Shown piece after piece: positions 27,201-62,795 of a stretch of 64,000 nt of DNA; position 1 is the first letter of the stretch; each line of letters starts with the position of its first letter. The notes beneath the pieces were generated by a model. It searched no databases. It worked only from the letters and a program-made list of their open reading frames with translations, and was not told the DNA's origin. Made by a program: the position numbers and the translations under genes. The stretch is from Sipunculus nudus (lineage: Eukaryota > Annelida > Sipuncula > Golfingiida > Sipunculidae): positions 37,588,019 to 37,652,018 of the forward strand of contig CM049306.1 in assembly GCA_026874595.1 (NCBI GenBank), written 5' to 3'.

Positions 27201-28100
27201 TGAAAAGTATGGCGAGTTTTTGTTATTAACAGGTTTGGACTTAATGGCTTTTTCTGGGCCTTTGTTTTTCTGTTCCCTCCTGGCAGAGGGTCGCGTATTT
27301 GGCCCCTTTGACATCCGTTTAACAAGTTCTTCAACAATTTTATTTGGTGATGTATCAGTTCTTTTCTCAGATGATTTATTTGTAGCTGCATCTTTCTTGT
27401 TTGGGGATAAAATGACCTGAAGGTCTTTGAGAAGTGATTCACGAAAAGCCTTCGAATCTACGAGTCTTTCACCACCTGCAGGTTCTGTCCTCTCTCTTTT
27501 TACCCTTGCTTTTTGGGTAATCTTTTTATTCTGTATTTTACCAATCTGAGTAATTTCAGATTTAACACCTGATGACTCTGGAAGACTCTTTGGGGCAGGC
27601 CGTTTCCTTGCTCCGTTTCCCTTTATAGCACCTGTACCCAAACTGCTCTTTCCAGAACTCTGCATTAGCTTCTCATTCCTACAAATGTCAACAACAGGTT
27701 CACCTGCACCAGACTGCTTTAAACTAATCTTATTATCTCCACATTTTAATACTTTGTCATCTGCCTCTTTTTGTATTCCTGCTTTACTTTTGTTACTATT
27801 TGCTACTTTTCCAGCTGCTGCTTTCACACTTTTTCCATCTATTTGTTCTTTAATATCTTTTGTGTTATTTTTACTCATGTCATCAGATACTTTTTTGTTA
27901 GTTTTCTGCCTCCTGCTGCCTTTCCTTTGGTTTGCAATGTGTGGTTCATCTTCTCCTTTGTCTGGTTCAACTTTCACAATCTGTTCTTTAAAATTACGCA
28001 TTCCATTCCTCCTTGGTCGTTTTGGTTCAGATTTCCTCTCTGTGTCCACTGGTGACTCCTCAGCTTTCTTCCGTTTTCTTCCTCTTGTTTTCTCCATCAT
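9054..28100 (-). CDS. XPC: XPC homologue, DNA damage sensor (21 coding exons, 1156 aa)
   Basis: Exons 5' to 3': 28100-26870, 26291-26198, 25452-25368, 24528-24316, 23598-23536, 23132-23040, 22582-22215, 20873-20740, 19900-19850, 19290-19198, 17753-17598, 17162-17105, 16443-16332, 15512-15468, 15097-15053, 14432-14343, 13783-13702, 12961-12868, 12032-11939, 11549-11445, 9218-9054. The total is 3471 nt and all phases agree. XPC with RAD23 and centrin detects helix-distorting lesions and recruits TFIIH in global-genome nucleotide excision repair. Order of parts: disordered N-terminus (1-410), transglutaminase-like fold in two parts (about 445-593 and 760-860) split by a basic linker, BHD1-3 (about 860-1060), centrin helix (1076-1092), C-terminal tail. 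Human XPC is 940 aa; the extra length is mostly the first exon. One donor (exon 8, AAAA|GTCAGT) is weak. A CAG at 28107-28105 suggests an upstream non-coding exon. Confidence 0.95.
10035..10100 (+). repeat. 5S rRNA-derived fragment (internal promoter half)
   Basis: The stretch contains GGTTAAGC, then CGGCGGTTAGTTTTTGGATG and GGTGACCACGCGTAC. This parallels the 3' half of animal 5S rRNA (GTTAAGCAACGTCGGGC, GGTTAGTACTTGGATGGGTG, ACCGCCTGGGAATAC), including the A-box and C-box of the RNA polymerase III internal promoter. The 5' half is not recognisable, so it is a pseudogene or the head of a 5S-derived SINE, not a functional rRNA gene. It lies in the last XPC intron in antisense orientation. Confidence 0.65.
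11445..11549 (-). CDS. XPC: XPC exon 20: centrin-binding helix
   Basis: Residues 1068-1102 contain [18 protein letters not shown]. The human centrin-2 binding helix is NWKLLAKGLLIRERLKRR, and its three anchor residues (W848, L851, L855) are all conserved (W1077, L1080, L1084). Confidence 0.95.
12623..12734. repeat. 14-bp minisatellite, 8 copies (XPC intron)
   Basis: Consensus GTCAGATTCTRTGA is repeated head to tail with point changes in most copies. A single outlying related copy lies near 12565. It lies in the intron between exons 18 and 19. The repeat is in register over eight units and encodes nothing. Confidence 0.9.
12868..13783 (-). CDS. XPC: XPC exons 17-18: BHD3 lesion-flipping hairpin
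   Basis: Exon 17 (13783-13702) encodes [20 protein letters not shown] and exon 18 (12961-12868) [12 protein letters not shown] and [12 protein letters not shown]. They match human [20 protein letters not shown] and ITGFDFHGGYSHP. Two of the human aromatic positions used to read undamaged bases differ: human F756 is Tyr985 here and human F799 is Thr1028, while the F797 equivalent (Phe1026) and N754 equivalent (Asn983) are kept. The codons are TAT and ACC, so neither is a one-base misread of an obvious kind. Confidence 0.9.
16332..16443 (-). CDS. XPC: XPC exon 13: BHD1 core
   Basis: Residues 880-917 read [20 protein letters not shown] and on to YARECVQT, matching human [20 protein letters not shown]....YSRDCVHT. 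The next exon (15512-15468) gives [15 protein letters not shown]. Its Trp924 corresponds to human W690, the residue changed in a known XP-C patient allele. Confidence 0.93.
17598..17753 (-). CDS. XPC: XPC exon 11: end of transglutaminase domain
   Basis: Residues 809-860 include [20 protein letters not shown], then [14 protein letters not shown]. They align with human WVRDVTQRYDPVW....KCRVDAEWWAETLRPY. Exons 9 and 10 (19900-19850, 19290-19198) carry the preceding [13 protein letters not shown] and CVDCGSG segments, matching human QWLEVFCEQEEKWVCVDC. Confidence 0.92.
17820..17996. mobile_element. MITE-like element in an XPC intron
   Basis: Ends ACAGTGAAACCTGT and ACAGGTTCTACTGT are inverted copies, 177 bp apart. 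The interior is rich in GTGGTCTTAA/TTAAGACAGG motifs. Same family as 6171-6350. Confidence 0.6.
21577..22197. mobile_element. Longer relative of the ACAGTGAAACCT element (XPC intron)
   Basis: Starts ACAGTGAAACCTTA and ends AGAGGTTCTACTGTA with about 600 bp between. The interior has no long ORF and includes AGTAGAGCGACCGGC near 21700. Lies in the intron between exons 7 and 8. Confidence 0.45.
22215..22582 (-). CDS. XPC: XPC exon 7: charged linker inside the transglutaminase fold
   Basis: Residues 594-716 are almost entirely low-complexity basic and acidic sequence (K, E, D, S, T) with a conserved-looking island [15 protein letters not shown]. Human XPC has RERRVASRVSYKE at the same place. The end acceptor/donor pair is phase 0 in and phase 2 out. 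Exon 8 (20873-20740) continues the serine-rich linker. Confidence 0.85.
24316..24528 (-). CDS. XPC: XPC exon 4: transglutaminase-like core, RAD23-facing region
   Basis: This exon encodes residues 471-541, beginning [17 protein letters not shown] and including [11 protein letters not shown]. It aligns with human [11 protein letters not shown]....LVKWFIGTF. Exons 5 (23598-23536) and 6 (23132-23040) continue with [20 protein letters not shown], matching human [20 protein letters not shown]. In XPC/Rad4 this catalytically dead transglutaminase fold binds RAD23. Confidence 0.92.
26870..28100 (-). CDS. XPC: XPC exon 1: long disordered basic N-terminus with TFIIH-binding acidic end
   Basis: This single exon encodes residues 1-410 and starts [15 protein letters not shown]. 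It is lysine/serine-rich with many KRKK/KRPRR-type nuclear localisation patches and no folded domain. It ends in an acidic run and SDWEEVE (W406, V409), donor GAAG|GTAAAT. In human XPC the equivalent DWEEVEE stretch near residue 133 binds the PH domain of TFIIH p62 through its W and V. The mollusc N-terminus before this motif is about 270 residues longer than the human one. Large antisense ORFs across this exon are shadows. Confidence 0.9.
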
Positions 28101-28106
28101 GATTCT

Positions 28107-28270
28107 GCAATATTTAAAAAATTATGGTCAGAATAAAATTAAATAACTGGAGCAGCAAAAATATTACATACAATAATCACAAATTCTAGGTTCATAGATA
28201 AGTACTAGCTAGAGATTCTTAAAAAAATGATGCTTCCCTAACATTTCTTTGTTTTGCCTTTTGAGTGATT
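28107..28270. promoter_or_regulatory. XPC: Upstream flank of the XPC start exon
   Basis: Directly upstream of the XPC start codon the minus strand reads TTTTTTAAATATTGCAG|AATC, a plausible 3' splice site. That implies a 5' non-coding exon further to the right, which I could not locate. No TATA-type or other promoter element is convincing here. Confidence 0.35.
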
Positions 28271-29230: not shown

Positions 29231-30424
29231 TCTGTATATATTTTCTTCAAATTATTCAATTTTATGCTATAGCAATAACACTATTGTTGACAGTGCGAAG
29301 GAGCAAGGACTTAGTGGGGTGGGGGAAGGGGATGGTGGGAGTTACAATACCCTTGCATATACGTACAGGATATGAAATTTAATTAATCAGAGCTTACAGG
29401 AAAAAAAAGTTTATTCATAATTATTAAATATTTAAAACAGGCAAGAAAGCTAGAGAAACAAAGCAAATAATTTTAATTCCCATTCTTCTGAGCCAGGAAA
29501 TTATGAACAATTTTTACATAAATTCCCTTTTTTATAACATCATTTTTTTCCAGGTTTGAAAATGTAACTATACATTTTGAGTATAACATATATGTGAATA
29601 TTTCAGTTGATTCACATTTCTTAATTGCATCAACATATATATCTAATAAATTAGGTTTATAGTACCTGTCAACATAATGGGGTGGAGGGAGGAAGGGAGG
29701 CATAGGGGTGAGAGAGAGAGAAAGAGAGAGAGAGAAAGAGAGCTAGAAAGAGAGAAAGGGAAAGAGAGAGGAGAAAGGCTCTTTGGTAATTACTGCCTGA
29801 CCCAGCCTGACCCAGACACTCACAGAATCTCTGTATATATTTTCTTCAAATTATTCAATTTTATGCTATAGCAATAACACTATTGTTGACAGTGCGAAGG
29901 AGCAAGGACTTAGTGGGGTGGGGGAAGGGGATGGTGGGAGTTACAATACCCTTGCATATACGTACAGGATATGAAATTTAATTAATCAGAGCTTACAGGA
30001 AAAAAAAGTTTATTCATAATTATTAAATATTTAAAACAGGCAAGAAAGCTAGAGAAACAAAGCAAATAATTTTAATTCCCATTCTTCTGAGCCAGGAAAT
30101 TATGAACAATTTTTACATAAATTCCCTTTTTTATAACATCATTTTTTTCCAGGTTTGAAAATGTAACTATACATTTTGAGTATAACATATATGTGAATAT
30201 TTCAGTTGATTCACATTTCTTAATTGCATCAACATATATATCTAATAAATTAGGTTTATAGTACCTGTCAACATAATGGGGTGGAGGGAGGAAGGGAGGC
30301 ATAGGGGTGAGAGAGAGAGAAAGAGAGAGAGAGAAAGAGAGCTAGAAAGAGAGAAAGGGAAAGAGAGAGGAGAAAGGCTCTCTGGTAATTACTGCCTGAC
30401 CCAGCCTGACCCAGACACTCACAG
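29231..30424. repeat. Near-perfect 599-bp tandem duplication
   Basis: Positions 29231-29829 and 29830-about 30424 are the same sequence at an offset of 599. I found one mismatch (CTCTTTGG near 29784 versus CTCTCTGG near 30383). Both copies give the same 76-aa minus-strand ORF (29473-29703 and 30072-30302), which I treat as a non-gene reading of the repeat. Confidence 0.95.
29709..29771. repeat. GA-rich (GAGA)n microsatellite
   Basis: Interrupted GAGAGAAAGAGAG run; its second copy lies at 30308-30370 within the 599-bp duplication. Confidence 0.85.
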
Positions 30425-41996: not shown

Positions 41997-43385
41997 GGAG
42001 AGAGAGAGAGAGAGAGAGGGTAATGTTGGCCGTTCAAATATGTTGGACAAAAATTGACAAAGGCAAGTTACATAAACATAAATGTTTTGTCGTAAGTACT
42101 TCACGGTATAAGTAGCATTCTGTATTCATGCACTCGTGAAAGTAAACAAAAAGCTGGTTCCTTTATTGGCTTTAAATGTTAGAAGTTTTGAATTGAAGTT
42201 TGACAGTTGAGAGTAGTAGCGGCCTTTTGCACAATTATAAACTAAAATCATTTTGAGTAAAAACGACATCTAACGGAACTGTGGCGTAAAATATATTCAT
42301 GCATTTATCTATTTATCTCATGAGTGGTATGACGTATCTGCCTAAAATTTTTAACGTCTTGTAGTTATCTCATACACAAGATAGGTGGCCTTTTTGCAAC
42401 CATTTTTGCATACTGTCCATCTATGTGTCTACATTTCGTGAAATCCCACATCTCAGTTGTGCTATGATGTATCAGACTGATTGATCGTTGATACCTTTAT
42501 CTCATTCACATTATTGGTGGTGCCACCTACATTTATAGCGTCTTTCGTTCAAGCTGGAAATTTCAAGTTCTTCCTTCTATTTTTTATTACCTTCCTCAAA
42601 AACGTGGGATGGAAGTTCTATTTTCACCTTTGTCAGTTGGTCGGTGTTTTTGAAGTGACCACGGATGATTCCGAAGGGTGACCTATAGGTGCATGGAGTA
42701 CTATGTTCGGGAGACAGTTTTAAAAAAGGCATTTTTATTTCAGCTTCTGACATGTCAAGAATCAGGGCACAACAGCGTGAAAGGCTTCTCTATAATTATT
42801 AGAGTGAGGTATTCAGATAGATCAACTGCTGGGTACATATGAGCACTGTGCGACTGGTCTTTTAAATCTGCTTAAGTACAACAGTTGTGGAATGTGTGTA
42901 CAAAGCCCCTATAGTGTAAAGCTAGCATACAAGTGTATAAGCTGTGTTGTCACTTACGTATAAGAAATCTCATCATGTTGTAACTGAAAAGTAAGATTTC
43001 TTCTGGAGTTGGCGCCAACTGTCGACCAAAGTAACAAACCCTAACCCTAATACTTTATTATTTTTATTATGGTTAACACCCCCATTACTCATAAAGTAAT
43101 AATACTTTAAAATCTATATTATGGTGAACAAATCCTTAATTATACGGTAATTAAAAGGACATTAATGAGCAGAAGTATTTTCAGAAAGGCCTCTTCGAAG
43201 CATTTCTATTTTTGTATTAAAAATTGTGAGTTTCCCTTGTTCACATGCGTAATATACATATATATATATATATATATATGTATATATTTACATAAATATG
43301 TTTTTGTGTGTGCGTGCGTGTGTGTTTGTGTAGCCAATTATGTATGTTTTTACTACATTTTACAGAAATATTGATCATGTAACTG

Positions 43386-45658: not shown

Positions 45659-45707
45659 ATGTGTTTCAAAAAGACTTGCGACAAGTGTCAGAAAATAACA
45701 TGGGCCG
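45659..45707 (+). CDS. Shared first coding exon of a CxxC small zinc-domain gene
   Basis: ATG then 16 codons and one base, MCFKKTCDKCQKITWA, ending GCCG|GTAAGT, phase 1. The pattern MC....C..C.K.TW.G is the N-terminal half of a short uncharacterised cysteine-rich protein family that I recall from fungi, plants and animals (MCxKxxCxxCxKxTWxGCGxHVxxVxxxVPxxxxCxC). Likely metal ligands here are C2, C7 and C10. The second half of the domain is supplied by an exon downstream, of which three are present, all with a phase-1 acceptor. No second copy of this first exon was found before 58629 or 62104. Function of the family is not known to me. Confidence 0.8.
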
Positions 45708-46596
45708 GTAAGTGTACAGATCGAATATAAGCACAGCAGGTCTGACAGTAACATCTATGATCCACTCAAATTAGCAAATATAATAAGTACATCATGTTTG
45801 TGTTATATTGAACTTTTACCTTCTCTTAGCTTCCGTGCACTGCATGCAGTCTATTTAAGCATGGTACACAACGCAATGCTTTGCTTATTGGGCTGATTAG
45901 ATAAGCGGTAAACTAAACCCTGGGTTGGTGGTGAGCATTTATATGGGCTATAATCCTCTATACTGAACTTTGCAGTCTGGTTTGTGTTGCAAGGATACAC
46001 GCATGGCCAGTGTACCATAGCTATGTTTATATTATTTACTCTTCGATTTGGTCATTGAACGTGACGACCTGGCGCTTCCGATATTTAAGTTACTGAGGGG
46101 CTTAGATGTTCAGTTACTGGACCTTTAAATCATCAACGACTCTTGATTAGAGGTCCCAGTACAGTTATCATTGTTTACAACGGTTGGGGCCTGCACGTGG
46201 TTCCTCTTTCTCTTGGGGCGCGCCCTGCAGGGTGTAGTTTTGAACGCGATCCCGTTGGCCGTTTAATTGTAGGCCTATATGTGTACACAGTCACCCGTGT
46301 ATCGACGCACCAGTTCACTGTAACATACGTCCTTGTTAAGAGCGATATACATAACTCATTGTATGAATTACAGCATACCAGGAGACAGACACTGATTGAT
46401 CATTGGTGTGGAATGCTTTATTCTTGGCTAGAATGAGCTTTCTATGATTACTTTATTGTGTGCCTACCTGCATATCAACAGCGTGAAATTTCCTGGCATG
46501 AGCCCTCCCGTTTCGTTTTCATGTTTTAATTTGTATGAATATATATATATATGGATATATATATATATATATATATGGATATATATATATATATAT

Positions 46597-46670
<74 letters not shown>

Positions 46671-47995
46671 GTTAAGTTGGCCTAACAGCTATTCATTATT
46701 GCTGTACTAAATATGGGGGGGGGGGGGGTTGATTTGATTCGATGAAAGAAATTGGTGAGAAAGAACCATGTCGGATGTTTTGAATATGAGTAGAATAGAA
46801 AAAGAATGATGTCGGAGAAAACATTGGCTCTATGAAGAAAGTTAACGTAGGCGTCAATGTATCTTAATAAATGTTTCACCAGGTTCCCAAACTTTTTGAC
46901 ATCCCCGCCCCCGTTCACCTATATAAAGGCCTATAGCCACTAATTAACCAGTTGTTACTTGTATTTCCGGTTCGAATCACCGTGACAATGACGTTTTACT
47001 TCAGAAAGGATGAATTCAGATGCCAGGGTCCTGAATAAGGGGCGGAAGTATTACATTCTGGACCGTGTATATACACTTCTTACGCAGGGGTAAACACGGC
47101 AGTCTTTCCAGATCTCCATGCTTTAACCGTTGCTTTGTATAGCTCGTTCTCCGGGGCTTCCACGCAGGGAGTGCCAAGAATTAGACCAAAGAGATCGGGG
47201 TGTCATCCGTTTACAATTTGGAGTTGGATGCACAATGCCATATCACGCTCTCATTGGTCGGATTACCATTCTTTGTCATTTGCAAGCCCTGCATGGTGGT
47301 GCAACCCGGGGTATCTTGGAATATATAGCAGTGGTTAAAGCGAAGATCTTGAATATCTTCAGTGTACAACCGCTGTGTAATGAGTGTGTACCTTGGAATG
47401 ATTTACTCCTCGTTAAATTGCGTTAACATTATATCGGGGAACATTGTGGGAGCGAAATAAATCCAATAAATTAAAGAAATCTGCATTCTGAGGAAAGCAG
47501 CCCTCCTCCATGCGAGGGTCCATATATTGGGATGATCCGAAAACTGTTTGCATTCACTTATTCGGCCAATAATGCTTCCCGAGTGATGATAAGTAAAACT
47601 AGAAGTCAGCATTCTAAGGAATGTGAGCGTCCACCATGTGTTTGCTTGCATATTCGGCCTATATTCCCAGGTTCATTCGGGCACAAGTTATTCCTGAACC
47701 CTGATCATGTGCCGGATCCACACCAAAATCTAATCGTTCTTTTATTGGCTCATTCCCGAAATGACCCGAAAGTTATATGAGTTTCAGTTCATGACTGCGC
47801 GAGTTATGTTGTAAATAATTAACACATACACTAACGTGGATAAATCTGGAATCGGGAATGGTCTGGAAATCGCACTAAGTGCACTCTCCCAGGGTCACAT
47901 GGCACTGACACGAAATCGGTTCATGTAAGAAAATCAGTGACCCCTAAAATGTATGAAAGGCCGCACCTGCAGGTGTACACCCTTCCCACCGTGGT

Positions 47996-48054
47996 CGCAT
48001 TCCATTCCTGTAATCCATTTAAGGAGAATGAAATGGATTACAGGATGGAATGCG
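47996..48054 (+). other. Strong imperfect hairpin (24-bp stem, 10-nt loop)
   Basis: Left arm CGCATTCCATTCCTGTAATC and CATTT; right arm AAATGGATTACAGGATGGAA and TGCG pair throughout except one bulged base. A partial relative (CGCATTTCATTCCAATAATC) occurs near 51606, so it is probably repeat-derived rather than a microRNA gene. Confidence 0.6.
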
Positions 48055-49203
48055 TCCGCTGGTTGAGGAGTGTAAAAATGGTTCTGCAAAGGCATATGGT
48101 CAAGTCTTGTATTAAAAAGACTTAACTTTCTTTATTTGGAGCTGATTTACAGCAACAGATGTATTGCATTTCATGTAAAAAAATTACAATTGACAATATA
48201 ACTGAAACATAACATGCAAGTCATAGAAACCACACATGACCTCTATTGGTTAACACGACCACCCCATGGCACGATCCTGAAACAGGACCACTGGGTTTGG
48301 CTTGTACCCGCCGACCATTGCGAAGAAGTGATAAATTTCCACAGCTCACGGCATAAGACGATTAACTCCTGCATGGTTGCGTGGAAACCGCCGAGTATAC
48401 AATACTAGTGTTACAACACAGTGCGTGGTCAGGCAAAACAAACCAAATACTTTACTATCGCCTTTGTTATAACTTGGACAAAGTATTGTTCCTGGTTGTC
48501 AAATTTCGCATAATTTGATCCAATAAATTTTGATGAAGGTTAAATGGCCGCTACAGGAAAGGCTTTTTTACCCTTGACAGAGCTTTGCGCTCTCCTGAGC
48601 GCCTCTCCAGTTTTGTCTTACTGGTGGTATTTCTGATCTGCGGACCCTCTGTGTGTGTAGAAGGGGGGGGGGGGGGGGGGTCTGTTCTCTTTGTATATGT
48701 TTAGCAAGGCGTAGCGTCATACCGACCCTCTGGCATTACGACCAGATAACTGGCGTCAGAGTTATTTTGCATCTAAGTCAGAGGAAGGCATTATAAGGCC
48801 TTATGAAGATGCAAATATTTTCGTCATTTCTGACGACGCTTCATGACCTATAGGTACACTGTCAAGCAACATAAACCAGACAAATCGTAGCATTTTTGTG
48901 TACTTTCTAGTAATACCAAATGTGAGCGAGAAAAATTCCTGTTTAACCCAGCACATTAGTAAACCAATCGGATGGTGTTTGAATTTATGACCGCATGAAC
49001 ACAAGCATAGTTCGCACGGGTTACAGGCAGCTAGCCATGCAGGCGATACAGGAAATGACCCGTGTCCATGGAGACGGTGTTTCAGTATCGGTGGTGCACT
49101 CACACCTATACTATCGTGTTTATTCATCATTCTTAGCATAATATTGAGATTTTTGGCCGTTTACCACAATATGAATGCAAACTGATGCAAGACCACTGTG
49201 ATC

Positions 49204-49345
49204 CATTCCTCTGTGATACTTGTATCACGACTCGAGTAGGCTTACCAGCCCAATTATCCGATTGCCTACTGATACATTCCTCTGTGATACTTGTATCACG
49301 ACTCGAGTAGGCTTACCAGCCCAATTATCCGATTGCCTACTGAGT
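49204..49345. repeat. 71-bp perfect tandem duplication
   Basis: CATTCCTCTGTGATACTTGT through to GATTGCCTACTGA is present twice at an offset of 71 with no mismatch seen across the unit. Confidence 0.92.
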
Positions 49346-51999
49346 CGGTTTGTCATGGCTTAGCAAGAAGTGCACTGTTTTCACCCATTGAAAGTCATTC
49401 TGCTACGCACAATTATCCACATGATTTAGGTATAATTTCGTGGGAAGTAAGAGTGTCTATCGGCGTGATTGGATCACAAACAGTAGCTTGCATGTGCTCT
49501 TTAATAGATAATAATCTACCCAGTGCGTTTGGCAGTAACGGCCAGCGAATTTTTCACTTGAGCGTTCTGAATCCGGTACCCTGGACTTTGGTGCTTCGAA
49601 TTTATAAGTTACCATGACGACATCTACATATAAACATTTTAACCCGTATATGCACGATTCCTTGATACAATGCTACTAATGTATCATTAAAACTCCCCAC
49701 GACATATCCCCGATAATAAAGTTTGTTTGTTGGGCCTTATATAGAAATAAAAACAACATTTCCCGCACACTGACATTAAACAATTGACAATAAATGGCAA
49801 TTCTTTAAGAAAACACGGTTTACCACTGTTCTTAGAAGCATGGGCTACACGCGCACTTGTCATGGGACCAGACGTTGAATGTAAGTAGCTTATAGCACTT
49901 CAGTCATGATCGAGACTACACGCCCAAAAGTTACCCTAAAATCATGGAGTTAGAAAAACCTGACCTTTTTGCTCGGTGGGAAAAGCCTATTACAGATGTC
50001 ATTTAAGGCTTAGATTCTTCTGAAATACGGTAATTGGTATAACATTGCGTATTGATATATTGGCAAACGTCAGTCTGTAATTCCTCAATAGAAATTCAAA
50101 ATGTAAAATAAAATTAAAAAAAAAAATATGGTTTTGACGCTCAATTTCTTCCGCTGAATAACCCTTGTATGGTAAAATGGTTTCATATATCGCGGGAATA
50201 ATTCTTTTAAAGCCTTCCAAATTAGTTGCTGTCTAGCTGTTTTATAATGTTGCTCTCCTGTTTAATTTGATATCCATTACCTTGGCGCTTCATGGACCTA
50301 GATTTATTAGCCGTAGAAACGTGACGCTCTCGCTTGCAGAGCGTTTCATCAGACTAATGCATGGTTTAATGCATCCCCCGTTACTCATTAGATGTAAAAG
50401 ATAAAACCTGCATGACGGAGCGAAGGCGTTGTATTGGATTACGTGCTTCACCCGTCTTACCTTATCTAGCGTGGTCTCCTGTTTAACTTTGAACCGACGT
50501 CTGTAAAATAAACAATTATTCGGCAGCATTTTGTAAAATCATGTAAATGCACTGTGTTAACTCTTAGGAAATCAGCAGACAGCTTTGGAACTCTGTATAG
50601 CAAGCGCCATTTTATCACAAGCCAAAAACAAAAGACACCATAACCTTTTGAATCTAGTACAATTGACTAATCGGTCATCGTATGCAATATCCGAGATGAG
50701 AAAGTACTACTCATGGATAATAGCTGCCACATCATGTTTTTTTACTTGCATCTCTTAAATTATAACTGAGACTGTAAGATGAAAGCTAATACGGTGATTA
50801 AATGTAAATGTCAATGGAACACGTTATGAGGGGTATAAATATCGCCGTATGTAATCTATTATGAGGTTCCAAGTAAAATAATCACTTGTCCTAGGAAGAT
50901 CACTATAAAATGTAAAATTATTACATATTAGATGCGTTCAGAGGGCAGAGCTTTTTAGATCAATCTGTAGGCGCAGCCACAATCAATTTTCGAAGTGTTG
51001 ACAGTATAAGCAGGAAACCTCCCTGATCGTTAATCTCATAGACATGGTTATACTGTATTTTTCACAGCTACATGCATACTGTTTGATTAGCTGAAAGTTA
51101 AGCATATTTAATAAACAGTGTATAAATATCACACATATCACACATATCAGGCCAAGCATTACATCTAGAAATCGGTTATTTTGGAAAATTCTGCTGGCCC
51201 GGGTTATATGTTTTCTCGTGTCGCAATGTCCGGAAATATCTTCGAACTATATATGACTTTTATAGATCACCAAAAAAATTATCATTTTATGAGATTTTGG
51301 GACTTCTGGACCATAGCGGTTTGGGGCTATTAACTTACAGTATAGTTTGCTCTCCGAGCTGGCACCGTGCCGTTCCTTATCTTGAAAGTTATATTTCAAA
51401 AGACGCCCTACGAACAAGGCACACAGAACACGCATACTTACCACTAAACAATACGCAAAGAAACATAAACATGGGGGGGGGGGGCTTCATTATGTGTAAC
51501 ATGGAAGTCTTTTAGTACAACGTAGTGCTGTGGGTTTTACGTCGTGCTGTGTGTATTATTCCGTGGTTATATCAGGTCTTTCAACACATTCCTCATGCAC
51601 CGGTCGCATTTCATTCCAATAATCCATTTCATTCAACACACTGCTCAAACGGGGATTGTATGCCGTGGCACGCCACCAGGAGGAGCCATATGTATTCTGT
51701 TTGCGCAGTGTTAAGCAAGATGCTGTGCAACATTCACGATTTCACGCACAATTTAAAACTGTTTAGGCCAATGAGAATTTTGCATTTAAGGTGCCAGTCC
51801 AGTTCTGGCCAAGAAAGCAAGCTGAATGCTATCGCTTACACTTCTGGGAAATTTCTCGATGATATATAACCTATTATTGTATCCGCAAAACGAAGGATAC
51901 TATGTTTTTGACCGGATTCCGCTGCTGCCGCCGCCGCCGCGTTCGTTTCCGGAGAACTCCTCTGAGTTACTGGACAGAATTTTCCGAAACTGACACCAA

Positions 52000-52990
52000 T
52001 TATCGGGTCACATGTGAACTGGTGCCTAGCCAATTTTCGTTGACCTCTGACCTTTCCTCTCTGCCCAGCGTCCATTTGTGCGTCTTATTCCATACATAAA
52101 CCCACATATCTCGGGAACCGTTTGACCGATCAGGAAAAAAAAAAATGTACAAATGTAGCCCTTGGATAGCTTTATAACATACACAAAATATGGTGGCGCC
52201 AACTGCAACCATTTTTGCAGTGTCCATCTGTGCATCTTCCTTGGGTTAAAATCACTCATGACTAATTCACCTTAAATTCAGCATGCGTACACATCCTGGA
52301 TAGCTTTCTTGATTTTATGACAGGTGGCGCCACCTACATTCACGTTCACGCAGCAGACATCCAATCTCATATCTCATTTGACCTATTGGGCCAAATTTTG
52401 CATGTGTATAGATCTCTCATAGCTCTTTATCATACACAAAACTGGTGGCGCCACCTGCAATCATTATTGCACAGCGTCCGTCTGTTTGTCTGCCGTGGGG
52501 TTATATCACTCATATCTCGGCAGTGGTTTGACAAATCTGCCTAAAATTTTGCAGTTTTATACGTCCTGGACAGCTTTTTTGATTTTATGACAGGTGGCAC
52601 CACTTACATACTAGTTTACGCTGCAGACATCCAATCTCATATCTCGAGAACCGTTTGACCGATTGGGCCAAATTTTGCATGTGTATAGATCTCTCATAGC
52701 TCTTTATCATACACAAAACTGGTGGCGCCACCTGCCACCTTTTTTGCACAAGTCCTTCTGTTTGTCTGCTGTGGGATTAAATCACTATTATACATGTAGT
52801 GGTTTGACTTTTCTGCATAAAATGTTGTATATGTATACAACTTGGACAGCTACTGGATATGTGGTAGGTGGCGCAACCTACAAACATATTTCGGCTGCAG
52901 ACATCCATGCTAATATTCAACACACCTCACTCCATTTCCCCTTGCAACTCAATCCTTGCCTCACTTCACCCGTTCCACTCTGATTTTGGC
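52000..52990. repeat. GGTGGCGCCACC tandem array
   Basis: GGTGGCGCCA(A/C)C-type palindromes occur near 52193, 52324, 52444 and 52719, with degenerate copies (GGTGGCACCAC, GGTGGCGCAACC) near 52592 and 52866. A 276-bp dimer is repeated (TGGGCCAAATTTTGCATGTG at about 52387 and 52663). The left edge contains TGACCTCTGACCTTT, the reverse of a DR1 site. A single related palindrome sits in the UQCC5 intron repeat at 2661. Confidence 0.8.
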
Positions 52991-53274
52991 GGATACACGT
53001 AGTCGCTTGTCGACTACCCGTATTCTAGTTAATTAATAGCAATCAGTGTCTTATGAATGAATATGCTATAACACTACTATGTAAAAAAAAATTGATAAAG
53101 AAGTAAAAATTAAAATTATATCAATATGGATGATCTGACTTAATATTTAGTTTTAAAGCGACACAGATCTTTTCCGTAGATCACAGTAATTCTTAATTTA
53201 GTAATCGTGACATAATAAATGTTCTATTAGAGATCTAGCTTGAAAATTCAATTCGGTAACCTTTTGACCCGCAG

Positions 53275-53354
53275 GATGTGGGCGCCATGTTGAAGCGGTA
53301 CTGAAAGATGTCCCGGAAGAAGAGCGCTGTAAGTGTAAACAGGAGAAGAAGTGA
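53275..53354 (+). CDS. Alternative last exon A of the zinc-domain gene (42-aa product)
   Basis: Acceptor TTTTGACCCGCAG|GA, phase 1, completing Gly17. It reads GCGRHVEAVLKDVPEEERCK, then CKQEKK and TGA at 53352-53354. Joined to the exon at 45659 it gives 42 aa, with C2, C7, C10, C18, H21, C35 and C37 as the putative metal grid. This is the compact, typical form of the family: no signal peptide, no membrane segment, presumably cytosolic or nuclear. The first AATAAA on this strand after the stop is at 53965-53970. Exon end and intron phase are the same as in exons B and C. Confidence 0.8.
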
Positions 53355-53438
53355 CCCGATGGCCATTCTTGATCACCAGCAGGCGTGGGACACTTCGCAC
53401 ACAGCATCTCCTACTTGTGATTTTGAATTAAGCACACA

Positions 53439-53887
53439 CTAAAAAAAAAAGAATATAAGCTGATCGAAGATTGTCAACATGGTAATCAACGTGGTCCATC
53501 CAAAGACATTTATTGTTGCTTGGGCACCAAAAGGATCATTGTCCCGGATGTCCTTGGAAAAGAAAAAAAAATTAAGATATTACTGCAGACGTGATGACAA
53601 AATAGTTAAATACCGAACAAATACAAGAAAATGTTACCAGTCATCTCGGTAAAATGATATATTGAGATCAGATGAGAGTTAATGGCTGCTATTAGTTCCC
53701 CTAAGAATATTTCTGACCTGCGGTAAATATATTAAAATTTGTGTACAATTGCTGTTCATACAATTTATCTTTTTACCTGTACTTTGACATACTTAACATC
53801 GGCTTTGACGTTAATATTAAACAGGTTAAAATAACCGTCAACGTGCGTGATGTATTTGTTGCGACCTTTGGTTGAGGAATAGTCCAT
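53439..53887 (-). CDS. Two-exon small C-terminally hydrophobic protein, antisense neighbour
   Basis: Exons 53887-53777 and 53552-53439 join at phase 0 (CAG|GTAAAA donor, TTTTCCAAG|GAC acceptor) to give 74 aa. It starts MDYSSTKGRNKYITHVDGYF, continues with a stretch containing VQDIRDNDPFGAQATINVFG, and ends in a hydrophobic run (about residues 52-74, TTLITMLTIF.. to FFFF) that could anchor in a membrane. I do not recognise it. The terminal FFFF comes from a poly-T run ending in TAG that also looks like a splice acceptor, so the true 3' end may differ. It lies tail-to-tail with exon A, 84 bp away, inside the intron leading to exons B and C. Confidence 0.5.
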
Positions 53888-54402
53888 GATTTCAATTGGA
53901 AACAGTTGTACAGAAATACAATGAGCACATTAACGCTTAGTTTTGAATATTAAAATATTATATTAATAAACACGCATACCAGTTTCCTTTTGTTTTTCTC
54001 ACAGATCTTTGTGTTTGATGTGTTGGTGGTTGCTCGAATGTAGAGAGAGCGAGCCAATTAAAAGAGTTTCATAAATGTATTTTTGCACATGTCAGTTGAA
54101 TGTTTACTTAGTTCGACTACTTTGCGACGCTTTTATCCATCCACGCACGACAGCTGTGTGCGAGTTGAAGTGTTGGAGTTCATATTTGGCCTCTAGATAC
54201 CTTAATACAGGTCCTAAATATCTTTTAACCATTCGATCTAAATGATAAAAGTGCCAGTAACGTGACCACTTCTGGTGCAGGATTTAAATTGGAACCTCTC
54301 AGGCCATCTGTATCAGGGCCTATAAAACTACCTGACTGTTGAGATCACTCCTGAGTTTAAGTATTAAAACTTTTCATGGCTTCTTGTGTCTAGTCACATG
54401 TC

Positions 54403-54459
<57 letters not shown>

Positions 54460-54935
54460 GCTCTATAGCTGGAAAGCGGTACTAACGGACATTGACAATT
54501 TGATATTTGCTACCCTTTGGTATGTTTGATATGAAATTGCTTATTCGGAAGTATTGCTTATCAAAATGCCCATTGCTTTATTAATCAGCCCCTATATTTA
54601 CCTCAACTGTTGTAATACTTATGATATGATATGATATGATATGATATATATATATATATATAAGGTAATTGTATAATGCACATTTATATAATGATTTAAG
54701 TATTTGGGCCTGTGTCATGCGAAATACGTGAGACCACATGGTTACTACTGTTGTGTCACAATTGTGACAGTGGTATTATATATAAGGTCAAGTCCATTTT
54801 GCAATAGGCCTCATATTATTTCTGTCTGTTCACTTTTGCCTTTTCCTTTATCTCACGCCCTGCTTCGCATTGCATGAACGCTTATTAATGCAACCATCTA
54901 GAGCTGGTTATTGGTCCAGATTTTAAAGTCATAGC
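53888..54935. other. Intron segment between exon A and the nested MITE cluster
   Basis: Contains a (TA)n run at 54407-54455 and GATAT repeats near 54622-54660. Nothing coding is supported. The upstream region of the antisense 74-aa gene lies at 53888-54100. Confidence 0.4.
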
Positions 54936-55081
54936 ACAGGCGCTTGAATTGCTGTTAGTGTAGATTTCGGTTAAATTTTTTACTTTTCTGGGTCATTTCC
55001 TTATAACTATTACTTATCTGACATTTTCCTATCGTTCTTCGCACTATATGGTCCATCATTTTATTATTTACTTAATATTTG

Positions 55082-55099
55082 CATAGGCTGAGGAACCGG

Positions 55100-55130
<31 letters not shown>

Positions 55131-56297
55131 ACTTTTGGACCCAGGTTCAAAATACTTGCAATACTGTCACTTAAAAACCTTTATATCAGCCTCCAGTCCA
55201 GGTGTAAGTGTGTGCAGTGCTAATCACCGCAGTTTTTTTTGTATTCAGTCGTAACCCTGTATACTGTGTACTCTGTGCATGTGGTTCTGTGTCCAGTTGA
55301 CCAAGTAGCATTCTTTGTCCTTCCAAGCGGCAACATTGATCCCATGCATTCAGTTAATTAAAGGACCGTATACGGAATGGCACATCAGCAGTTCACAAAC
55401 TACTTCCAAAAAAGGTAGGTGTAACATAGTTGTAGTACCCTTTAACTGAAAGATCCAAAAGCTATTATGATGTTACTTCATTAATTCCTAATGTGAATCC
55501 TGTTCTGTATAATTTATATAACTAAAGTCTGCTCATTTGATTTTTATTCTAGAAAGTTTGAAATGAGAAATTACACTCATTTCTTCTGGTTTTAATTTTC
55601 CACTGGTATAAACTATAAAGCTGAAAAATTGTTTTTATTTTCTGCTATTTATTTAAATATTTAGTGAAGAAAACTAGTATTTGCATAGGAATTCAGACAA
55701 GCAAATGGGTGACAAATATCTTTTATTCCTAGCTTACTTCAGTCTGTTTCATAAATTGCCTGTTTTGCCACGGTTCATTAATGTCATTTTTTTTCAGAGA
55801 AAACTGGTAGTCTTGTGTAAAGTTGCTAAGGAATTGAAACGTGGAGCTTATGAGTAATGAATTTTGAAATGTTCATGGTCTGTTTGAAAAACTCCATGTT
55901 TTAGTTCCTGTTTATTAACATTATTTATCAGAGTAAAACTGTTAGACTTGAGCAAAGACTTGAAAAAACTTGAAAAATTAGTCTTTCAATGAAGTTGCTA
56001 ATAAATAAGGGCAGGCAAATAAGTGAATGAGTGATGGATGTCATATATTCTGTCTTCATTCAGAATGTTTACTTTATAGTCGATTTGAGAAATTGTCTGT
56101 TTTCACTACTGTTTATTAAAATTATTTGAAGTAAAAAGTGCTTCAGTTTACACTCGAATTTTAAAAATTTTCCACACTGTGTGAGGGGGACACCCCTCCA
56201 ACACCCTCCCCCGCCTCTCAAGCGCCATTGCGCTCATTTCGTTCGCATGTGCGCCCCCCCCCCCCCCCCCCCTATTTAAGATGATCCTCAGCCTATG
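55082..56297. mobile_element. Inner element with CATAGGCTGAGGA ends
   Basis: CATAGGCTGAGGA at 55082 and its inverse TCCTCAGCCTATG ending 56297; poly-C runs sit just inside both ends (55100-55116 and about 56253-56272). A short open segment, MAHQQFTNYFQKR|GTAGGT, lies near 55378 and could be a relic first exon of a transposase, but no partner exon is present. Confidence 0.55.
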
Positions 56298-56298
56298 A

Positions 56299-56538
56299 AT
56301 TTGAGATAGGCAGCCAAGAAGCCCCCGTTGTTAGGCCTGACAACCATGGAACATAGGTTTCAGACTAAATTTGAAGTACATGCGTGATTGGCTGAACCAC
56401 TGTTACGTCAGCGGTGTCACCATCTGAAGACTCCAGTAGTAGACATATTAACCATGCAATCAGAAAACGCGGCCTCGGTTGCTATGCCATGGCTGTCGGA
56501 CCTAACGATGGGGGCCTTTTTGCCTGCCTATCTCAAAT
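56299..56538. mobile_element. 240-bp MITE with ~37-bp inverted repeats
   Basis: ATTTGAGATAGGCAGCCAAG with CCCCCGTTGTTAGG on the left is matched inverted by CCTAACGATGGGGGCC with TGCCTGCCTATCTCAAAT on the right. It abuts the inner element directly. Confidence 0.85.
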
Positions 56539-56679
56539 AAAAAAAGAGATGGGCCATATAGTGTGAAAAACGCTAGGAAAATGTCAGATGAATAATAGTT
56601 ATAAGGAAATGACCCAGAAAAGTAACAAAAAGTAACAAATTTAACCGAAATCTACACTAATAGCAATTCAAGCGCCTAT

Positions 56680-58628
56680 GGTCATAGGAGTTACGTATTA
56701 TACTGTACATTGTACAATGATACGTTATATTCTGTTTTGTTTCTTTATTTTACACAACAAAGACCACATATTCTTCTCAAGAATAACTTCAACTCTCGTT
56801 ATGTCTTGTGATTTAGACGTGGATGGATCAATGTTGCACATTTGTCATGATTGCATTTTAAGTTTATTTTCTGGACTGACGCAAAGACGTCGTATATCCA
56901 CCATCCCCCGCGGCTTGTTGCCAGATATCTAAGGTATTACCACGACATTTTGGAGACGTATTGGTCATGTGATCCATGTACGTAAATAAGCGATTTATGG
57001 AGCCACTTATATTTTTACCTTTCTCCAGGAGAAAATTTATCTTTTTCTAAAATATTAACATTTCAGTTTCACATCATCCATTCCTTTGAGCAAGGAGAAT
57101 TAAATGAGTATGCATGGATTGAGTTAAATTATTGTCAAAATGACAGCTTTACGGATCTTCAAATTTCATGTATCGGTTTGATGATTTCATGTGTTTGCAT
57201 ATACATGGTGGTGACCAAGCTGTTATGTCCGTATCACTTGAACGGCTCGTATTTACAACACTAAATTTTTATTTATCTTTTTTTTTAATGTTTCGTCGCC
57301 CATATATTCTGAGAGACCAAGTAGTCTGTTCAGCTTTTCCAGTGTTAATAAGTGAATATGTCATATAAAAATGACATATTTTGGTAAACAATCGCTTAGG
57401 GTAAGGTGAATCCAGTGGGTGTAAATTGAATTAAAAATTTCAAAGTAGTATTTTCAATTTAAATCAGAACATTTAAAAATTTCATGGGTTAGAAAACATG
57501 ACGAAATGTCTAATACAATATATCTCAAGAACGACTGAAGCTGTCAGCATCACATTTAACGGAAATAATTATCTGAATAATTGTAATGTGACTGATTGCT
57601 ACCTTTGATGACCTACTTTCTCCGAAACCATATACATGCTTTCAAGCAATCCCACTTTTCTATTTTCCTTCGTTTTTACCCAGTCCCACTTGTCCTACTA
57701 TTTCTTCAAATGCCTCCCTTTACCTATTTTTTCTTGCTTTTTAATATTCAACTCTAAAACGCTGAAAATTGCTATAAAATTGTTCTTGTCTTCTCAGAAG
57801 TGAACAGTTATGGACACGTGGAGTAGTGTGTAATAACAAAACTGCAGGTACAAACAAACTGAGCGCCGTATAAAATAGTATAAATATGTTTTCAATAATA
57901 TATTTTTTACTTCAAGCAATGGTCGAGAAGGGCCATAAATGATATTGATACATGTGTGGTTTCTGTCTTACCTTTGTCCAACTGGTTTTTTTTCTTCAGC
58001 TTTCCTGCTTTTGCCCTACTTTTTCTTAAGCTTATGATTGACTGCATGGAAATATAAGATTTCCCCAGAGATATATAAGAAAAAAATATCACATAAGCTT
58101 AATGATTGTAAGCAATTCCTTTGAGCAAGAAAACTTCAATGAGTAGTCGAGTGGTATATTTTCAAAACTTTTTCGTCATATTACGTGTCCCCTGTTTGCT
58201 TATACCAAACAATGTCTCTTACCAAATATCACAGGAATGGCTTCAAGAAATGGTCATGTAACTAGTAAGCAGAAATGCACTGTAAGACAGTATAGTCTTT
58301 AGTGGCGCTACCAATGCTGATAAAATAGTTGAAATAGTATTTTATTGTTTTATTTCTTTTCAGTTCATTGTATCTAAGCATGACCCACACAGAGTGAACG
58401 TTAAAGCACTATAGGTGCCATTGCTTTTATTTTAACAATATTTTAAGTATTTGTTTTTCACAATATCACGTTTGTTAGCTTTCTGGTTCCGCACTAACAT
58501 GTTGAGTATACGATAAGAAATTTATTAGAATCGTGTAAGAAATCCATGATATGCAAGTTAAAGAAACGTTTATAAGATGGTTCATTTTTCATTAATGATT
58601 TTTTAATGTTTTTGTCAACTGTACACAG
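56680..58628. other. Intron segment upstream of exon B
   Basis: AT-rich, no clear repeat or exon. I looked for a second copy of the MCFKK exon here and did not see one. Confidence 0.4.
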
Positions 58629-58735
58629 GATGCGGAATGCACGTAGAGAGCGTAATGCGGGACGTCCCAAAAAGCGAACAATGTACCTGCGACAACGGCA
58701 AGCCGAAAGGCACCAGGACTTGTACCATAGTGTGA
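58629..58735 (+). CDS. Alternative last exon B of the zinc-domain gene (51-aa product)
   Basis: Acceptor GTCAACTGTACACAG|GA, phase 1. It reads GCGMHVESVMRDVPKSEQCT, then CDNGKPKGTRTCTIV and TGA at 58733-58735. It aligns residue for residue with exon A over the domain (C18, G19, H21, V29, P30, C35, C37 all in place) and then has its own 14-residue tail with an extra cysteine. Joined to 45659-45707 it gives 51 aa. It could alternatively belong to a separate paralogue whose first exon is missing from this window, but none was found in the 5 kb upstream. Nearest AATAAA downstream is near 60195. Confidence 0.75.
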
Positions 58736-61700
58736 TGGCCAGACTCGATGTTTGTATATGGTACTGAGGATTATTCATTATGGATTTTATATTACGGAGA
58801 CCAGGAAAAGTGCTCGAGATGGAAAAATATATATCTTAGGAGATGGAGCTCGTGATATCATTAAACTATAACACGTGTATTAAGAAAGGGGAAACATATG
58901 ATCCTATACGAAATCAAATGCTGCCGACTCTGTAAAGGAAAAAGATATGCTAGTCATCAGAAAAAAACGGTGTAAGTTTCCTTCTCTGAGTAAATTGGTT
59001 ATTTAATCGATGTTTTTTTAGCAAATTTACTAAGTTTTAAAGTACTTGCTGGAAACGCATCTTCAGGTAAATGGTCATGGGGTCTCCCTTATTCGGAGGT
59101 GAATATTCATTCCCGTGACGTGAACCGTGACTGCAGGATCTGCACGATCCGTTCACACTGCGCATAGTCTGGTCCAAGGCGAGGATGTCACTCTTTGTAT
59201 ATTTTAAAATTATTTTAAAGTCGACGTTTCTCTGGGATCTATTTGTGTGTATTGCGTATACCAACAAATACTTTGTTGTATTGATGAAAACTTGTATAGC
59301 CACGGAGTAAAATCATGAACTAGCACAGGAAGATTATCCGAATTATGACTGGGGATTGACATTTGAGGCCAATTTAACCACAATAAGACCAAAGCGAGCC
59401 CTTTATTCATCTGTGATTGCGAACATTGTAATTATGAATGACGGATCATCATATATTCAGTCTGTAAAAGAAGAAGTGAGGAATGCTCGCTGAATACTCG
59501 AGTACGGTCATACGAAGATAAAGGTAAAATACAAGTAAATGGATATGCATGCGGACCGAGCATTAACGCAGAGAGACCTTGGAAAACAACGCAACTTATC
59601 GGGAGAAGTAGTTCGATGGTTCTTCATGATCGATGGTTCTTCAAAGTCGGGGAAATATCAAACTGCTGTGGCTTTTGCGACCAATGAAAGCTACAGATTA
59701 TGACGCACAAAAGGTACCCGTTCATTTCTTACGAAGCGGGAAATCTCAATTTTTGCTGGCGTTTTAGACACAACATAATTCAAGAAACCGTAAATTTTCA
59801 CACATTGCACCAACTCATACTTGACCTTAGACAAACCAAAACAGCACGTTCATCTGAAGAGTGCCGTTTTGTTTCTGCACGAAACCTTCGTGAACATGAA
59901 AGAATTCATGAACATATAGCAGCTATATACTGTTAAGTATCAAGCACTTTGATCCTAAATATTCTACATATATATCGTGGGCTCCACCCATTATACACGC
60001 AAAAAAAAAAATATATTTGGTTAAAGGTAAACATGAATGTATCAGCTCCTAGAGCCAAGTATATGTTATTTAAAGTAATGGCAGTTTCAAGTGAAAATTC
60101 TTTTTGCGTGATTTTCTCGTGCCAAATTATATGTTAGTAAAGAAATAAGATAGGTTTCTGACAATGAATCTGCGAAGCATTAGAATTCTCTATAATAAAA
60201 TGATCAGGTAGTTTTCTTATTTAAAATGTGTGAAGCAGTAGTTTTCTACTAATGTACACATTTTTTGTGAAGAATAATAATTTTCTTTGTCAACGTTTTG
60301 TATATGTCTTGGTATGCTCTTGTATTAAATGGAATTACGATGATCAATTTTGAGTGTTTCGAAGACTGCGTCTTGTTTCGGCACCTGGTTACAATAGACG
60401 GTGGTGGGTAAGTGAGACTTAAAATATCGTCACTGTCAAGCAAATTTATTCTCAATATTTGTTATACAACATAGGTAGCAATACATTTTAATCAGTCTTA
60501 TTTATTTTTTTTACTCATGTCTCCTTTTGTTGTTGGAAGAATTTTTTTTCTGTCTATATTAATTTGGCTATATTCCAAAACATGCAGGTTTTTTTTTATC
60601 AGCTGGATATTCTCCATATTAATATCTCCAATTAGCGCATGTGACAACAGAATAAAAACACAAAATTCTGAATCTTTGTTTGAATGATTTTATTTGCCTG
60701 CTGAACAGCTAATCAGATCTTAATTTTGAAGTACCAGAAACAAGAATACACTCAAGAGAACGGCTATATATGCTTGTTAGGTTTATGGGCATTGAAACTC
60801 AAACCCATAATGCACTGGGGGTTCTAAATTTATACACCAGCGAGGTAGGTATAAATGTAGTGGGAGAGGGGAGTGTGGTCTGTTCAAATACGTTCGATAA
60901 GCATAATATCATGGCAAATCATATAATCAGTTTTCGTGTGGTAAGGATTTCACGAAATAAGTAATTTTGTAAGTACATGAAATGTAAACAGGCGTTTAAT
61001 AAACCGTCCCACAATGCGTAACTGGAAGAGGTACGTTTTGAGTAGAAAGGAGGGGCCATCCATTAAAAAAAAAGCTGTCTGTTTACGTTGTTTGACCCTT
61101 GTAAGCTACGAACGCTATAATTTTATTAAAGTCTGGTACACGAGGTGGTGTCCATTGAAATTTGGCGATTATTCTCATAACCTTAAATATAAGATGTTAA
61201 ACAACATAACAAAACCAACATTTATATTTTACAACCTTCTGTTTCTTTTAATCTTTTGGCGAAGTCACATGGCCTCGGTCGTTACTTAGCAGTTTACTAT
61301 TTGTTGTTGGTATATTTATGGCACTAACAACCAACCAATGGCTTTAAAATGTAGGTATTTTAGCACGTGACCAGTAACCTTGGCCTTCATCCGTTTGTTG
61401 AGATATTGTTAAAAATACCGTTTTCAGACATTTTTTTTTATTGAATTAACAGAATATTTTACCAGGTATGGTTTTGGGTTCATTCTAGTTGATCATACGT
61501 TTGTCTCAGTCAACCATTGCAGCTTGATTTCTGAATCTGCTCTTTGAGTTTAAGAAAATATTAACAAATATCAATGAGGGCGCAACAATGTGGAACACTG
61601 ATAAGGACGTTGACAAATGGTATGTACCATTGACATATTACTAACCAATATGTAACGCCTACGGCAAGACTATTTAAGAGCTGTTACCCTGTTGAATGTT

Positions 61701-62103
61701 AAAAATACCAACTTTTTTATATATCATGGGATCTTTAAAAATTTTACTTCATCAAAGTGGAATATTTATATGTTCCAAACATTTAAAATACTGTAAAATT
61801 AATGTATGTTTAAATGGCCTGTTGCTTTAGAAAGCAAGTTAAGTATTTAAACACTAAAACAGACTCTTTAGGACTAAATTAACATTTGATACTAAATAAA
61901 CATTCAATTAATTGCGTTGATTTAACTTTTATTATGTAATATTTTAAGAATAATCAAACGTATATTGATACTGGATTTTTAACATTTACATTTATGCAAA
62001 GGTTGGAACAAAGACAAAAATTTTGGTACCTAATGAACTTTTTTTCAATTCATAACAACATTAATAATGATTATATTGATACTGGTGTCCTTTTTTTACC
62101 CAG
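58736..62103. other. Intron segment upstream of exon C
   Basis: No coding exon is supported. Short ORFs up to 91 codons show no recognisable features. One open segment ending at GGTGGTGG|GTAAGT near 60408 faintly resembles the shared first exon but lacks the second CxxC cysteine. An AATAAA near 60195 could serve exon B. Confidence 0.45.
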
Positions 62104-62753
62104 GCTGCGGGATGCACGCCGCAGAGATACTGAAAGACGTCCCAACCGACGCGCTGTGCTTCTGCAACCCGATCCCCGGGTTCGAACCAGGCGCAGACGC
62201 TCCCATATTTACTGAAACCGAAAACTCAATCGCAACTTTAACCGTCCAGAACCAAGAAATTACGAAATATGGAGTCAGTCTTCAAAGTCCAGAACCTGCC
62301 CAAAATACACTACCGGTGGTAGAAAAAAGAGCTGTGGTTACTATAGACGTTCCCGCCTATCCCAGCGATATACGAGATCACGTGATAGCAATGGAGGAGA
62401 CAGTGATGACGACGCATGGATACGTCACGCGAATACAGCACTCATATGTAAAGCAGTCGCCGACAGTCCGCTTCACCGACGGTCAAAGCACCGCGACCAA
62501 ATTATCGAATGCCGTTTATACGGCGTCACATGTGACTCACAATAATAATTACATGCAGCGAGCGACAGATTCTGGAGATCTTGAACATATTTCTGTTGAT
62601 GCCAATGATATCCAAAACGTAGCTCCCAAAACCAAATCTCTCAAAGGTATTATGAAGGACCCCCGTCATGCGAAATACAGGAAGCACCGAAACCCCAAAG
62701 ACTGCAATCCGAAGAGCAAGCACAAGCATATGAACAGATGCAGAATCGTGTGA
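62104..62753 (+). CDS. Alternative last exon C: zinc domain plus 190-residue tail (232-aa product)
   Basis: Acceptor TCCTTTTTTTACCCAG|GC, phase 1, with a long pyrimidine tract. It reads GCGMHAAEILKDVPTDALCF, then C37, and stays open for 215 codons to TGA at 62751-62753. The domain grid (C18, H21, V29, P30, C35, C37) is kept. The tail is hydrophilic and low in structure: serine/threonine-rich, with IDVPAYPSDIRDHVIAMEE near the middle and a basic end KSLKGIMKDPRHAKYRKHRN to CRIV that looks like a nuclear localisation or nucleic-acid-contact segment. The tail resembles nothing I know. Poly(A) signals AATAAA at 62755-62760 (directly after the stop) and 62790-62795 support a real 3' terminal exon. 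Confidence 0.8.
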
Positions 62754-62754
62754 T

Positions 62755-62795
62755 AATAAAGGATGCAGAGTCATCCCCTTACTGCAGTAAATAAA
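62755..62795 (+). terminator. Poly(A) signals of exon C
   Basis: Two AATAAA hexamers, 62755-62760 and 62790-62795, lie within 45 bp of the exon C stop codon. Confidence 0.7.

Follow-up and report, generated by a model that had tools for sequence, protein, structure and literature searches.

Within a 64,000-nucleotide stretch of the Sipunculus nudus genome (assembly GCA_026874595.1, contig CM049306.1, positions 37,588,019 to 37,652,018 of the forward strand; this whole stretch is called the window, and its numbering is used below), we find the coding exons of a small Cys/His domain, whose sequence suggests a candidate metal site. Their arrangement is best read, with a probability of roughly 0.58, as a single gene in which one coding first exon (E1a) serves three mutually exclusive last exons that arose by tandem duplication (A, B and C), with a complete paralogue (E1d + D) downstream. 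A shared first exon is the most economical reading of the locus, and from it we infer that the corresponding junctions are used. In the mechanism that we propose, there would be one transcript start, and the three last exons would compete for the E1a donor. E1a would contribute three cysteines, the first half of the domain, and each last exon would contribute the second half, consisting of a cysteine, a histidine and two more cysteines, such that the choice of last exon would keep the domain intact and alter the C-terminus. Form A would be free, short and without a C-terminal CaaX-type box; forms B and C would end in such a box and, if prenylated, be tethered to membranes, with C also bearing a long tail that includes a basic stretch. 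D would belong to a separate gene, with an end of the same kind as that of B.

Two first exons and four last exons

The exons E1a, A, B and C are real and exactly placed. They are given here with their associated signals and with the exons of the paralogue, which lie outside the window and are numbered in window-equivalent positions:

45659-45707, plus strand: putative shared first coding exon E1a, MCFKKTCDKCQKITWA plus the first base of Gly17; ATG at 45659; C2, C7, C10 and W15; final G followed by the donor GTAAGT
53275-53354, plus strand: candidate alternative last exon A; C18-G-x-H21...P30...C35-x-C37, tail KQEKK; predicted 42-aa product
58629-58735, plus strand: candidate alternative last exon B; C18-G-x-H21...P30...C35-x-C37 half-domain, 14-residue tail ending in CTIV; predicted 51-aa product
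58721-58732, plus strand: CTIV codons, CaaX-type end of exon B, from the translation
62104-62753, plus strand: candidate alternative last exon C; C18-G-x-H21...P30...C35-x-C37 half-domain, 195-residue tail with a basic stretch, ending in CRIV; predicted 232-aa product
62739-62750, plus strand: CRIV codons, CaaX-type end of exon C, from the translation
62790-62795, plus strand: AATAAA poly(A)-type signal, 37 bases past the exon C stop; a second AATAAA at 62755
70620-70668, outside the window: second first exon E1d, MCYRTDCKSCGKYTWG plus the first base of Gly17; donor GTATGC
73039-73148, outside the window: fourth last exon D; phase 1, ending in CTIF; 2,370 bases past E1d

As an initial annotation of this DNA had stated, E1a supplies C2, C7 and C10, and each of the three last exons starts with a phase-1 acceptor: AG precedes 53275, 58629 and 62104, and the stops end at 53354, 58735 and 62753. 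The second halves of the domain encoded by A, B and C align without gaps, with C18-G-x-H21, P30 and C35-x-C37 at identical spacing, again as annotated. The further statement that the tails diverge completely has to be given up, since B and C share a CaaX-type end. Poly(A)-like signals are found 3' of every last exon, most clearly of exon C, and do not distinguish one gene from several.

We used a profile built from 42 of 44 bacterial relatives of the domain (L052 and L055, which have a one-residue deletion, were left out) in a six-frame scan of 103,882 bp free of N, comprising the window and 39,882 bp downstream. The fixed-pattern scans for first exons employed patterns drawn up with E1a in view; they, too, picked up E1d and no recognisable first exon for B or C. 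The local profile scan is the sensitive test for diverged first exons. In the first-exon half, this bacteria-only profile placed E1a at the top of 76,924 scanning windows (33.6 bits), with E1d at 30.3 bits and the next best at 12.1. In the exon-2 half, B (49.9 bits), A (48.4), D (48.2) and C (37.1) stood out from 61,848 scanning windows, of which the next best reached 5.5 bits. E1d and D form a complete two-exon copy about 8 kb beyond exon C, bringing the locus to two first exons and four last exons, with acceptor and phase falling at the same codon in all four of the latter. E1d is identical to E1a at 29 of 49 bases; that it was picked up despite this divergence makes it a positive control for the recognition of diverged first exons. 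The gaps between A and B and between B and C yielded no recognisable first exon, with best scores of -0.9 and -1.2 bits, respectively. The earlier observation that these gaps are empty is thus borne out; extending the search beyond the window did reveal a second first exon, E1d, which in the proposed copy would feed its own last exon D.

Genome-wide protein searches with A, exon D, E1d + D, a bacterial-like sequence and exon C gave strong matches at this locus only. The exon C protein had a single match, and one of the protein searches returned five weak matches elsewhere in the genome (E 0.26-4.2). One genome-wide search did not list E1d, which means that such searches can miss a diverged first exon.

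An intron block shared by C and D (60939-60987 and 71977) was considered as a trace of duplication and rejected, because a diverged further copy at 42014-42124 identifies it as a dispersed repeat. This repeat, around TGGTAAGGATTTCACG, is found at four places, namely 42014-42124 and 60864-60987 in the window and window-equivalent 70997 and 71977. Comparison of other intron and 5'-flanking sequences for homology gave nothing convincing on the history of the gene. In the 1 kb upstream of both first exons, we found no consistent metal-response element among promoter motifs. A CACGTG box, whose significance is untried, occurs once in each upstream kilobase, at 45536 (-123 from the E1a ATG) and at -179 from the E1d ATG.

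Constraint and alternative readings of the locus

Comparisons among the four last exons over 20 codons each gave a non-synonymous divergence (pN) of 0.24-0.44 against a synonymous divergence (pS) of 0.67-1.08; these are small numbers, and a pS above 1 is an effect of the few sites. Synonymous sites are thus near saturation, and amino-acid sites are not. C versus D has the highest pN of the six pairs. In addition, when the bases of the 195-codon tail of C were shuffled 20,000 times, the frame stayed open only twice. Joining to E1a is the best explanation for two exons, B and C, that are constrained and have no first exon recognisable as theirs. The arrangement proposed in the initial annotation, in which three last exons compete for a single first exon, therefore remains the most economical, given this constraint and the empty gaps, although the complete tandem copy E1d + D nearby speaks on the other side.

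That copy is also an argument for separate tandem genes, in which B and C would use first exons or alternative starts of their own, either non-homologous or too diverged to be recognised, in the manner of E1d + D. We consider this distinctly less probable than a shared first exon, if still a serious contender. The constraint on B and C demands only some first exon, and the open frame of exon C extends back past its acceptor and includes an ATG about 37 bases before it. However, the profile that scores E1a at 33.6 and E1d at 30.3 bits finds nothing above -0.9 bits between A and B or above -1.2 bits between B and C, and the identical acceptor codon and phase of all four last exons fit joining to an exon that carries C2, C7 and C10. 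It is less probable again, and in our view unlikely, that duplication of last exons left B and C behind as relics, deprived of their first exons and now rarely if ever spliced. Their lack of recognisable first exons would be expected under such a scenario, as would the divergence of C, which has the lowest profile score (37.1 bits) and takes part in the pair with the highest pN; yet the frames, acceptors, all ligands and the CaaX-type ends have stayed intact while synonymous sites approached saturation, and the long tail of C is still open. Nothing was found in favour of chance open reading frames (ORFs) with splice-like ends, and at 37-50 bits, compared to 5.5 bits for the next of 61,848 scanning windows, the probability of this explanation is negligible.

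Several observations nevertheless weigh against the single gene with a shared first exon. The junctions from E1a to A, B and C are predictions from the sequence of one genome. The would-be introns from E1a to B and to C measure 12.9 and 16.4 kb. Near E1a and the acceptors, docking/selector pairing reaches 12 bases for A and 9 each for B and C, within the 8-12 bases seen in 12 shuffles each, so that no signal for a steered choice stands out. Finally, whole-gene duplication also occurred here, as seen from E1d + D, and the first exons of B and C may have been lost or have diverged beyond recognition.

Predicted C-terminal processing

The last four residues of B (CTIV), C (CRIV) and D (CTIF) constitute CaaX-type boxes, with the cysteine at -4, an aliphatic residue at a2 and a position at the very C-terminus; A ends in KQEKK and has no box. 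C-x-I-[VF] thus stands at three of the four ends; among the 1461 open stretches of at least 35 aa in the same DNA that run to a stop, 21 finish in C-x-[ILVM]-x. B and D can be aligned along their tails, so their ends are not independent. In C, 191 more residues, including a basic stretch, precede the CaaX-type end. In the available part of PMC11152559, the CaaX box is described classically as a cysteine, two aliphatic residues and X, with an aliphatic a2 commonly giving full processing; FTase (farnesyltransferase) is assigned CaaX in general, and GGTase-I (geranylgeranyltransferase I) the CaaL/I/M subset. On this basis, the B and C forms may be prenylated, as their sequences predict. Two points argue for caution here: the arginine at a1 of CRIV is not textbook CaaX, and a term search of PMC11152559 turned up no mention of CTIV, CTIF, CVIF, valine or phenylalanine. 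Most of the bacterial relatives (31 of 44) are 37-45 residues long, about the length of A with its 42 residues, which makes the CaaX-type ends look like later additions.

A Cys/His domain shared with bacteria

Using spliced A, B and D as an aligned query against bacterial and archaeal genomes, we obtained at least 44 bacterial relatives (L013-L056) among the 80 candidate stretches listed, with E-values that hold relative to these candidates only. Nearly all are from Actinobacteria, with 46-63% identity over 35-42 residues. The spliced A, B, C and D all fit the pattern MC-x4-C-x2-C...TW-x-G-C-G-x-H...P...C-x-C and share their Cys/His grid with the bacterial family; unlike B, C and D, none of the 44 relatives ends in C-x-aliphatic-x, as judged by eye. 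C2, C10, W15, C18, H21 and C35 are present in 44/44, and a cysteine occupies position 7 in 42, lying one residue nearer to C10 in the other two. The conservation of KITWAG is biased, as the search patterns held part of this motif. C37 is found in 30 relatives and is replaced in the remaining 14 by a histidine one or two positions further on (His38/39), an exchange that suggests a metal ligand.

Pfam gave no match for A, B, C or D, and NCBIfam none for A, C and D, the three that its scan covered; among solved structures, there was no convincing relative of the domain. The small Cys-rich family probably bears the PANTHER label PTHR34724; literature searches by family label, by the name of a rice gene and by six sequence motifs found nothing. 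In an Archangium assembly (L013:1501-1857), the domain shares its protein with a YgaP-like transmembrane segment (PF11127, 7.4e-18), a fusion which is, to judge from the sequence, a bacterial way of placing the same domain at the membrane.

Bacterial gene neighbours point to sulfur and thiol chemistry

Flanks of up to 1.5 kb were inspected at each bacterial locus, many of the relatives coming from few genera (Arthrobacter, Cryobacterium, Mycobacterium). From 162 neighbour ORFs, a hand-chosen subset, with a few replaced or added, made up the 124 that were scanned; at E-values up to 1e-6, Pfam matches comprised Rhodanese (10), Thioredoxin (7), Pyr_redox_2 (7), MFS_1 (6), CMD (4) and AhpC-TSA (3). 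By phmmer, a thioredoxin, rhodanese or related gene lies nearby in 24 of the 44 loci. Because the phmmer queries were chosen after viewing the ORFs, the five loci that supplied them are counted automatically; the matches behind L024, L033, L041 and L049 are weaker or more distant, and L032 was counted by its thioredoxin, an overlapping rhodanese-like ORF being dropped. In 12 of the 44 loci, again by phmmer, a thioredoxin or rhodanese frame on the same strand ends 14-75 bases before the start of the relative. Metallo-beta-lactamase (MBL) plus rhodanese proteins adjoin L036 and L040 in single scans.

Plasmid records with a match numbered 78. Of the six inspected, two of which carry the same island, five hold a metal-sensitive regulator, and five, not the same ones, hold at least one of rhodanese, MBL hydrolase, TauE and YgaP-like/DUF2892. 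On pRHL3 of R. jostii RHA1, the order is MBL hydrolase, trxA, CMD, relative, rhodanese, MMPL, metal-sensitive regulator, DUF2892. One plasmid record has instead a multicopper oxidase near the relative, so that copper is another candidate theme. Streptomyces coelicolor reportedly has a gene cluster for sulfane sulfur. Persulfide dioxygenase, sulfide:quinone oxidoreductase and CstR are names that we presume by interpretation and take from no annotation.

Together with the C37-to-His exchange, the bacterial neighbours would link the putative metal site to sulfane-sulfur or thiol stress, and the role that these neighbours make most likely for the domain is in stress from sulfane sulfur (persulfide) or thiophilic metals. 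This assignment, based on raw counts, has to be set against the 20 of 44 loci with no thiol/sulfur relative within the short flanks and against a predicted structure (pLDDT 73, pTM 0.36) that gave no structural match. It is less probable that the domain is a redox or persulfide-carrying thiol protein rather than a structural metal site and that the different ends merely alter its partners, a question of function that is separate from splicing. The thiol and sulfane-sulfur type of the neighbouring enzymes would suit such a protein; the exchange of C37 for His38/39 in 14 relatives, however, fits a metal ligand better than a redox thiol.

Other features of the region

16296-16613 and 17503-17853, minus strand: exons of a Rad4/XPC-type DNA repair gene (Pfam BHD_1 1.9e-12, Rad4 8.8e-11)
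26832-28121, minus strand: large ORF without a Pfam match, which may belong to the Rad4/XPC-type gene
29473-29742 and 30072-30341: two identical 89-aa ORFs
82633-87075 (window-equivalent, outside the window), minus strand: 1481-codon open stretch, a 1064-aa part of which (L008) has no Pfam match

The identical 89-aa ORFs are spaced 599 bases from each other, which points to a segment of some 600 bases having been duplicated in tandem very recently; the tandem repeats at 29710 and 30309 show this spacing too.

Discussion

Tandem, mutually exclusive terminal exons are known from Drosophila pip and PGRP-LC (PMC9013439, as far as the available part of this source goes). There, as proposed here, a common 5' part is followed by tandem homologous terminal exons or 3' variable regions, of which each transcript receives one. 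In contrast to those genes, whose alternatives are described in that part of PMC9013439 as terminal exons and 3' UTRs (untranslated regions), each last exon in S. nudus would complete half a Cys/His site, the ends differ in a candidate lipid anchor, and the choice is predicted from the genome. As in the pip and PGRP-LC type, several homologous terminal exons follow a single upstream exon that they would share, a hallmark recognisable here at the level of sequence.

The KRAS4A and KRAS4B splice forms reportedly also differ in their last coding exon. In CDC42, according to the available part of PMC6411841, the alternative last exons 6 and 7 change the last 10 residues, and both resulting forms are prenylated. 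As would be the case here, alternative last exons in CDC42 alter the C-terminal lipid modification of an otherwise shared protein; unlike in CDC42, the last exon in S. nudus holds half the domain, and form A is without a box altogether. Literature searches on alternative last exons combined with mollusc, prenylation or CaaX revealed no such case among the matches listed.

Taken as a whole, the picture of a bacterial-type persulfide- or thiol-stress metal domain in an animal, where one first exon and any of three last exons would give rise to free, short prenylated and long basic-tailed prenylated forms, distributed between cytosol and membranes, is a tentative one, to which we assign a rather low probability. 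If the junctions are used, a metal/thiol site would be divided in two by a splice junction, and selecting one last exon or another would set membrane attachment, for a domain often found in bacteria next to genes that handle persulfides and thiols. An uncharacterised family reaching from bacteria to animals would thereby gain a first testable role, in the handling of sulfane sulfur or thiophilic metals.

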